A DNA stretch of 12,464 nucleotides from Nitrospinota bacterium (GTDB lineage: Bacteria > Nitrospinota > Nitrospinia > JACRGO01). The stretch lies in contig JACRGO010000160.1 of NCBI GenBank assembly GCA_016212295.1, positions 1 to 12,464 of the forward strand, read 5' to 3'. Both the position numbers and the translations under genes were made by a program. The notes under the pieces are model-generated. The model ran no database searches, was not told the origin of the DNA, and was given only the letters and a program-made list of their open reading frames with translations. Positions 71 to 1,605 of this stretch are shown piece after piece (the stretch's first letter is position 1; every line of letters starts with the position of its first letter).

Positions 71-347
71 GTTTTATCCTAAACCCGGAAAAAACGGCCT
101 TTTCGCGCCTTGCTTGACATTTGGCCTCATAGCAGGGTGACGTCAGGGCGCTTTTTTGGAAAGACTTTCCTATTGCTTCAAATTTACAAAATATCTGTCT
201 GGGTAGAATTAGGTGAAATTTGGATTTGGTCAAAAACTACTGGAATCCTTTTGTATCAAGAAAAAGAAAAGGTAAAAATGCCATCCAAAATTATCGCTGG
301 ATTGAGGTTCTTTTATAATTTTTTCCAAAGCCAATTTATTAAGTTTG
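71..347. other. AT-rich stretch with no supported gene
   Basis: I see no convincing protein gene here. A reading frame at 110-370 runs straight into the tRNA-like segment, has no ribosome binding site and codes for nothing recognisable. TTGACA at 114-119 lacks a -10 box at the right distance, and TATAAT at 314-319 lacks a -35. If the tRNA fragment that follows is an attachment site, this stretch would be the outer edge of an integrated or formerly integrated element. Confidence 0.4.
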
Positions 348-395
348 ATGGTCTCCAAAACCGTGACTGAGGGTTCGATTTCCCCTCGCCTGCCA
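348..395 (+). tRNA. Truncated tRNA-Trp (anticodon CCA), 3' half only; candidate attachment-site scar
   Basis: The anticodon arm is intact: 348-352 (ATGGT) pairs with 360-364 (ACCGT, one T-G wobble) around loop CTCCAAA, giving anticodon CCA at 355-357. A T-arm with GGGTTCGATT follows, then the 3' acceptor strand CTCGCCT, G and encoded CCA at 393-395. The expected 5' acceptor strand (AGGCGAG) and D-arm are absent from the AT-rich sequence upstream. The T-stem is one base short of a functional tRNA. Retention from the anticodon arm to the 3' end is what tRNA-targeting integrases leave at the distal att site. The orientation would put the element to the left and the original chromosome to the right. 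No integrase is visible. Confidence 0.72.
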
Positions 396-422: not shown

Positions 423-465
423 TGAAACACATGCCCTCGCGTATTTCGCGAGGGCATGTGTTTCA
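423..465. terminator. Perfect 19-bp hairpin between the tRNA scar and the methyltransferase gene
   Basis: Bases 423-441 and 447-465 are exact reverse complements around a 5-base loop (TATTT). The hairpin starts 12 bases past the minus-strand stop at 478-480. No T run follows on the minus strand (it reads AACAAAAAATT), so it is not a textbook intrinsic terminator for that gene. It could protect the mRNA end, act together with the neighbouring hairpin, or be a palindromic repeat. Its perfection suggests recent origin or selection. Confidence 0.45.
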
Positions 466-477
466 GTTATAGTCTCA

Positions 478-735
478 TTATTTGGTTCCTGACACAATGG
501 CATAAGCGCCAAAATTTAAGGATGATAGATGCTTGTCAATCTCTATCACAGTTGCTTCCACCTGCTCTGTCTTTAACAAGCAGTCTGGCAGCATGGAACC
601 CAGTGTTGGATATGTCACTATTTTTGCCACTTTAAGATTGCGCGAAAATAACGCTTTGATATTTTCGATAGAATACTGACGGGCATGTATCGAAAAAACC
701 TTTTTCTCTAGGTGAACATCCAGGCACTTTTTCTC
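478..735 (-). pseudogene. In-frame C-terminal continuation of the methyltransferase beyond TGA
   Basis: Immediately after the TGA at 736-738 the same frame reads EKKCLDVHLEKKVFSIHARQ and runs 85 codons to TAA at 478-480 without another stop. The segment contains the strand/helix pattern expected for the last part of a Rossmann methyltransferase (KVFSIHARQYS, then a helix, then KIVTYPTLGSMLP). There is no separate start codon with a ribosome binding site. The simplest reading is one nonsense mutation, for example CGA to TGA, in a gene otherwise intact over 375 codons. UGA readthrough or selenocysteine insertion are alternatives. By eye I find no convincing SECIS hairpin after the UGA, only a 3-4 bp stem about 9 bases downstream. 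Confidence 0.75.
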
Positions 736-1605
736 TCAATTTATTTTTGCTGCCACGGTCAAGGGCCACGGCAAAAACTCCCATTTATAAATAAGAGCAT
801 CCAAGTTGTAGAAAGAGAAAAGAAATCCTCCTCCGGGAACCAATGTACGCCTAACTTCTTGGATCAGTTTTTCAATGTTTATTATATCGCTTGCTATTCC
901 AAGATTCATAACAACATACGACACCGAATCATCTGGAAGAGGGATGCCATCTTCGAGATCAACCTGTCTGAAGGTGATTCTTTCACTATCCTTTGAATCG
1001 ATCTTTGCGTTAGCTACCCTGATCATATGCTGGCAGATATCATAGCCAATGACTCTTTTGAATCGTTTGGCCAGGTGAAAAGTTTTAGGCCCAGTGGCAC
1101 AACCGAGGTCAATAGCCAAATCCTCCTGCCCCCGTATATTAATGCCGGTATCTATAATAGAGTTCTCAAAGGCTTTATACTGCTTGAGACCAAAGAGTCC
1201 TTTATCGTATTCAGAGTCGTACGTTGGCGAAATTTTTTCAGTCATTGATCGAAGATTATTTTTTAGAATTCCAAACCACTCATCATCGTCCTTAGTATCG
1301 GGCAACGGATCATAATTACCCTGTAGTTGAATCATCTGCTGTTTACATGATTCCCCAATTATATTGTAAAGCATCGATGCGGCAAAATTCGGATTAAGAC
1401 CAAGTTCTTCTGCAATTTTCATTACCTTCTCTAAACGACCATTTTCTCTTTCCTTGTTAAATATCGGAGTTGGAGGATTCTGACTTTTTTTGAATGCGCC
1501 AACATTTAATGACAGTTCCATACGATGAGCCGCAATAACCAGTGTGAACTCATCGATGAGTTCAATTTGAGAACCAAGCTGATCCAGATTTAGTGAACGA
1601 ATCAT
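736..1605 (-). CDS. AroQ chorismate mutase-like domain fused to class I SAM methyltransferase, ending at an in-frame TGA
   Basis: Residues 1-92 match the AroQ chorismate mutase fold almost position for position with the E. coli domain. Active-site equivalents R28, K39, E52 and Q90 (E. coli Q88) are present, but R11 is Gly, D48 is Ile and R51 is Lys, so mutase activity is doubtful and the domain may instead bind a ligand or dimerise. After a linker, residues about 140-289 form a Rossmann methyltransferase with motif I LAIDLGCATG at 163-172, the acidic motif II region (VIGYD) and the post-motif strands YVVMNLG and PGGGFLFSF. The start has a strong AAGGAG six bases upstream. The frame hits TGA at 736-738, yet the same frame continues for 85 codons with plausible methyltransferase C-terminal sequence. 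It follows the FISUMP gene by 108 bases and may share its transcript. The substrate is unknown. Confidence 0.8.
   Translation of the reverse strand: MIRSLNLDQLGSQIELIDEFTLVIAAHRMELSLNVGAFKKSQNPPTPIFNKERENGRLEKVMKIAEELGLNPNFAASMLYNIIGESCKQQMIQLQGNYDPLPDTKDDDEWFGILKNNLRSMTEKISPTYDSEYDKGLFGLKQYKAFENSIIDTGINIRGQEDLAIDLGCATGPKTFHLAKRFKRVIGYDICQHMIRVANAKIDSKDSERITFRQVDLEDGIPLPDDSVSYVVMNLGIASDIINIEKLIQEVRRTLVPGGGFLFSFYNLDALIYKWEFLPWPLTVAAKIN

Follow-up and report, generated by a model that had tools for sequence, protein, structure and literature searches.

Type II chorismate mutases (AroQ; PF01817) are known from fusions in which an N-terminal CM_2 domain is followed by a second enzyme, as found for chorismate mutase-prephenate dehydrogenase or dehydratase. 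Class I SAM-methyltransferases (Methyltransf_11/25/31; UbiE-like) are characterised by a DLGCxTG motif and a Rossmann core. A third group, the methyltransferase-domain selenoproteins represented in NCBIfam by MduS, ArsM_AhpD_UU and MTase_UXPK_star, combines a methyltransferase core with an in-frame UGA in genomes harboring selenocysteine machinery. Traits of these three systems come together in a gene found in a 12,464-nucleotide stretch of DNA from a Nitrospinota bacterium (the whole stretch analysed is hereafter called the window), which belongs to contig C119 of a 3.74-Mb genome distributed over 237 contigs and 90.5% complete. With good probability, this is a horizontally acquired and orphaned fusion gene, probably of Patescibacterial origin, in which a recent nonsense mutation generated a TGA.

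The interrupted gene and its protein family

A first-pass annotation had described a methyltransferase frame running on the minus strand from 1605 to 478 and interrupted by a lone TGA. Translation of the whole frame reproduced this description, giving 289 codons, the TGA at 736-738, 85 further codons and a TAA at 478-480, with no second internal stop. The features of the gene are as follows:

478..1605, minus strand: interrupted chorismate-mutase-like / class I SAM-methyltransferase fusion gene, 375 codons if read through
1336..1572, minus strand: chorismate mutase type II-like domain, residues 12-90 (PF01817, E 3.8e-12, 46.7 bits, cut-off 27)
781..1116, minus strand: SAM-methyltransferase core with the DLGCATG motif, residues 164-275 (PF13847, E 7.8e-17)
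736..738, minus strand: in-frame TGA, codon 290; I/Q/V/S/V/P/L/Y in homologues, never Cys
481..735, minus strand: the 85 codons that follow the TGA, with homology to the C-terminus of all aligned relatives

The name methyltransferase thus fitted only one half of the protein, the class I SAM-methyltransferase half, since the other part matched chorismate mutase type II (PF01817). The family profile also matched the E. coli chorismate mutase (1ecm) over residues 8-97, together with many methyltransferases of the PDB; in viral_contigs, all matches to the family were partial and lay around the methyltransferase core. No NCBIfam model covered the fusion, and the chorismate mutase and UbiE/MenG models of that collection all scored under their cut-offs; the protein is therefore counted, from its sequence, as a member of an unnamed and uncharacterised family of chorismate-mutase-like and methyltransferase fusions.

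The open frame that follows the TGA is not a product of chance, because the homologous tails aligned without any indel at the TGA site (7-row alignment) and because the match of the family profile to the source genome ran across the TGA, spanning positions 1-374 of 375 with one TGA inside. The tail was also considered as a separate downstream gene, which was unsupported, as no alignment of the tail with relatives was obtained outside that of the complete protein. When the read-through frame was modelled with AlphaFold from six sequences (modest mean pLDDT of 61.8), two strands (residues 325-332 and 368-374) fell after the stop; in the methyltransferase sheet, these are likely beta-6 and beta-7, a numbering that follows from the order of the strands along the chain. 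Conserved tail residues and two predicted strands of the core sheet both lie 3′ of the stop, and the 289-residue product, deprived of the last two core strands, is most likely inactive.

Homologues and the residue opposite the stop

To find relatives, six short peptide patterns were run against about 85,000 species genomes, and all six relatives recovered belonged to Patescibacteria. In the window's own phylum, only one of 76 other genomes carried a relative (L008), with 34% identity over residues 14-282, and the family profile found none in a genome of the same genus. When 379 genomes were drawn from the phylum of L005, one more relative (L093) was found besides L005 itself. One of the relatives, from Kaiserbacteria (L007:3465-4585), had its frame divided in two by one frameshift near codon 162, which may represent either a broken copy or a misassembly or sequencing error.

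Eight homologues could be aligned across the TGA site, L007 being included by reading two frames around its frameshift. The first-pass annotation had left room for homologues that naturally end at 736-738; all eight continue through the site, which rules out a natural gene end there and identifies the TGA as a lesion relative to the family. The stop was not common to the homologues, all of which were intact through the site (L007 across its frameshift). Opposite the TGA codon, they carried I, Q, V, S, V, P, L and Y, so that the position is unconserved and never occupied by Cys in this alignment. Of the two options originally offered, a recent nonsense mutation or a recoding event, the former was supported, and the absence of Cys spoke against the latter.

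It was also considered whether the tail had decayed since its interruption. Identity before and after the stop was, for example, 47/42% between the window copy and L002 and 61/47% between L002 and L005; that is, the drop was proportionate to the one seen between other homologues and no excess decay of the tail was found. Among otherwise invariant columns, the window copy was changed in none of the 12 after the site and in 8 of the 67 before it. Thus, neither tail identity nor invariant columns gave a sign of relaxed constraint after the lesion. This absence fits a recent lesion and proves none, and relaxed constraint would not be required of a young pseudogene. With no excess decay in the tail, the TGA must be young, an error that the cells do not carry, or a stop that is tolerated because ribosomes read through it.

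Genetic context of the locus

The surroundings of the gene contain three further features:

347..395, plus strand: tRNA-Trp-like 3′ remnant, with anticodon loop CTCCAAA, T-arm GGTTCGA and 3′ CCA
423..465, no strand assigned: inverted repeat with perfect 19-bp arms and a 5-nt loop, shortly beyond the full-length TAA
1..141, no strand assigned: repeat at the assembly break, 99-100% identical to the end sequences of five further contigs from this genome

A trpS-like ORF adjoined the gene in all seven loci with an upstream flank (L002, L004, L005, L006, L007, L008 and L093). These adjacent ORFs were called TrpS by their N-terminal signature; PF00579 confirmed the linked TrpS of L005 and L008, and that of L005 was also over the TIGR00233 cut-off. 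The linked TrpS of L002 and L004-L007 shared 57-74% mutual identity, and L005 carried a second, divergent TrpS only 33% identical to the linked one. No trpS was found beside the window gene. The single TrpS of the host genome is encoded on a different contig and is 46% identical to the TrpS of L005. In L004 and L005, a convergent tRNA-Trp was located about 80-90 bases past the gene end, and the 347-395 segment of the window occupies an equivalent place and orientation. The 5′ tRNA half is absent from this segment, for which ARAGORN makes no call; its loop GGTCTCCAAAACC is common to L004 and L005 and does not occur in the genome's own tRNA-Trp. The segment would be either what is left of a transferred tRNA gene or an integration scar.

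The inverted repeat at 423..465 is a possible transcription terminator, with no long T run, and the assembly was probably broken by the repeat at positions 1-141, the shared length near 141 suggesting a k-mer overlap. GC content was 39-42% over the gene region vs roughly 42-57% in the rest of the window. An Rfam search of the window returned nothing credible. Taken together, low GC, the missing trpS, the tRNA remnant and the nearby repeat led us to read the region as a foreign fragment in decay.

Other genes recurred near the homologues, namely AstE_AspA (aspartoacylase-like), a YbdK/GshA-like carboxylate-amine ligase and a histidine-phosphatase-like gene (L003:1015-1926, L005:6394-7173, L005:7246-8004 and L004:9235-9933), and these could form a small biosynthetic cluster. 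The adjacency of trpS suggests a functional link between the fusion enzyme and tryptophanyl-tRNA; a literature search for a trpS/chorismate mutase/methyltransferase cluster returned nothing related, as judged by title and abstract.

Competing readings of the TGA and comparison with known systems

According to the preferred explanation, the chorismate-mutase/methyltransferase gene would have been gained by horizontal transfer, probably from a Patescibacterium. Both the transfer and its source are inferred from distribution and synteny, as the nine-row tree resolves little on origin. The acquired copy would then have been orphaned, with its usual trpS neighbour missing and tRNA-Trp reduced to a 3′ remnant, before a recent nonsense mutation turned codon 290 into TGA. 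In this way, translation would stop after 289 residues, and the methyltransferase made would lack the final two strands of its core.

According to the main rival to a nonsense mutation carried by the cells, the real gene is intact and the metagenome-assembled contig shows either an error of consensus or assembly or the allele of a minority strain. A single substitution-type lesion in 375 codons of a gene otherwise free of decay signs is what such an error would leave, and the source is a genome of 237 contigs, 90.5% complete, whose contig ends in a repeat. However, the TGA is about 600 bases away from that repeat, short-read assemblies seldom contain single-base consensus errors, and true decay of the region agrees with the missing trpS and the tRNA remnant. 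An error or polymorphism is, for these reasons, considered unlikely.

Less probable still is a leaky UGA, in which low-level readthrough by tRNA-Trp or another near-cognate tRNA would make sufficient full-length enzyme for the tail to stay under selection. Tail conservation is as expected from the homologues and the site tolerates many residues, both of which agree with readthrough, but recency accounts for the conservation equally well and UGA-G is not known as a leaky context. Moreover, RF2 is present (519.4 bits vs a cut-off of 370), and among the tRNAs typed the TCA anticodon occurs only on tRNA-Sec. With the CCA anticodon of the tRNA-Trp found, the same observations agree with the earlier statement that wholesale UGA reassignment was unlikely, and the presence of RF2 spoke against genetic codes 4 and 25 (UGA as Trp or Gly).

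The possibility that the host's SelA, SelB and tRNASec recode this UGA to selenocysteine called for closer attention, as a search for selA, selB and selC had been proposed and a complete locus, selD included, was indeed present. Contig C130 (L037) carries selD, selB and tRNASec together with the beginning of selA; SelB (275.7 bits vs a cut-off of 242.25) and tRNASec (76.8 bits, anticodon TCA) rest on curated cut-offs, and the names selD and selA were assigned from the translated frames. The frame of selD, which starts at 320, itself needs UGA to be read as Sec, at 413-415 near its N-terminus, and the genome is likely a true selenocysteine user. Since the Sec locus is complete, the case for selenocysteine turned on the site itself rather than on any lack of machinery, and selenocysteine was dropped on the residues that homologues carry at the TGA. 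The first reading had seen no strong SECIS hairpin after the UGA, which is compatible with a predicted fold of -8.0 kcal/mol vs a shuffle mean of -9.9 (z +0.71). A bSECIS-like hairpin energy scan, in which 35% of background TGAs were at least as good, lacked power, as the selD control UGA was not distinct from background either, and was kept out of the evidence. Several methyltransferase-domain selenoproteins are known through NCBIfam exception models, but these Sec-methyltransferase models scored only 27-40 bits against the window protein, with cut-offs of 380-575, and covered the generic core alone. With an unconserved site, neither Cys nor UGA in any of the eight aligned homologues, a fold no better than shuffles and model scores far below cut-off, selenocysteine is extremely improbable here. 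That the UGA, at this unconserved position, is read through by either route, near-cognate tRNA or Sec system, and that the full-length fusion is still made and selected, is likewise highly improbable.

The probable nonsense mutation in a probably acquired, orphaned gene removes one candidate for stop-codon recoding from a host in which the Sec machinery truly exists and a false recoding call would be easy. The analysis also exposes an uncharacterised fusion family adjoining trpS in seven readable loci, two of them with tRNA-Trp, and this trpS association is a more interesting by-product than the recoding question and merits a separate study.

In comparison with the described systems, the gene departs from the AroQ fusions in that the partner of its chorismate mutase type II-like domain is a SAM-methyltransferase. 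Unlike the class I SAM-methyltransferases, whose motif and core it has in common, the window copy ends before the last two strands and scores below the UbiE/MenG cut-offs. It differs from MduS, ArsM_AhpD_UU and MTase_UXPK_star in falling far under their cut-offs, in matching them over the core only, and in having no Cys/Sec column at the TGA site. The present case is most likely one of an ordinary decaying gene rather than of stop-codon recoding.
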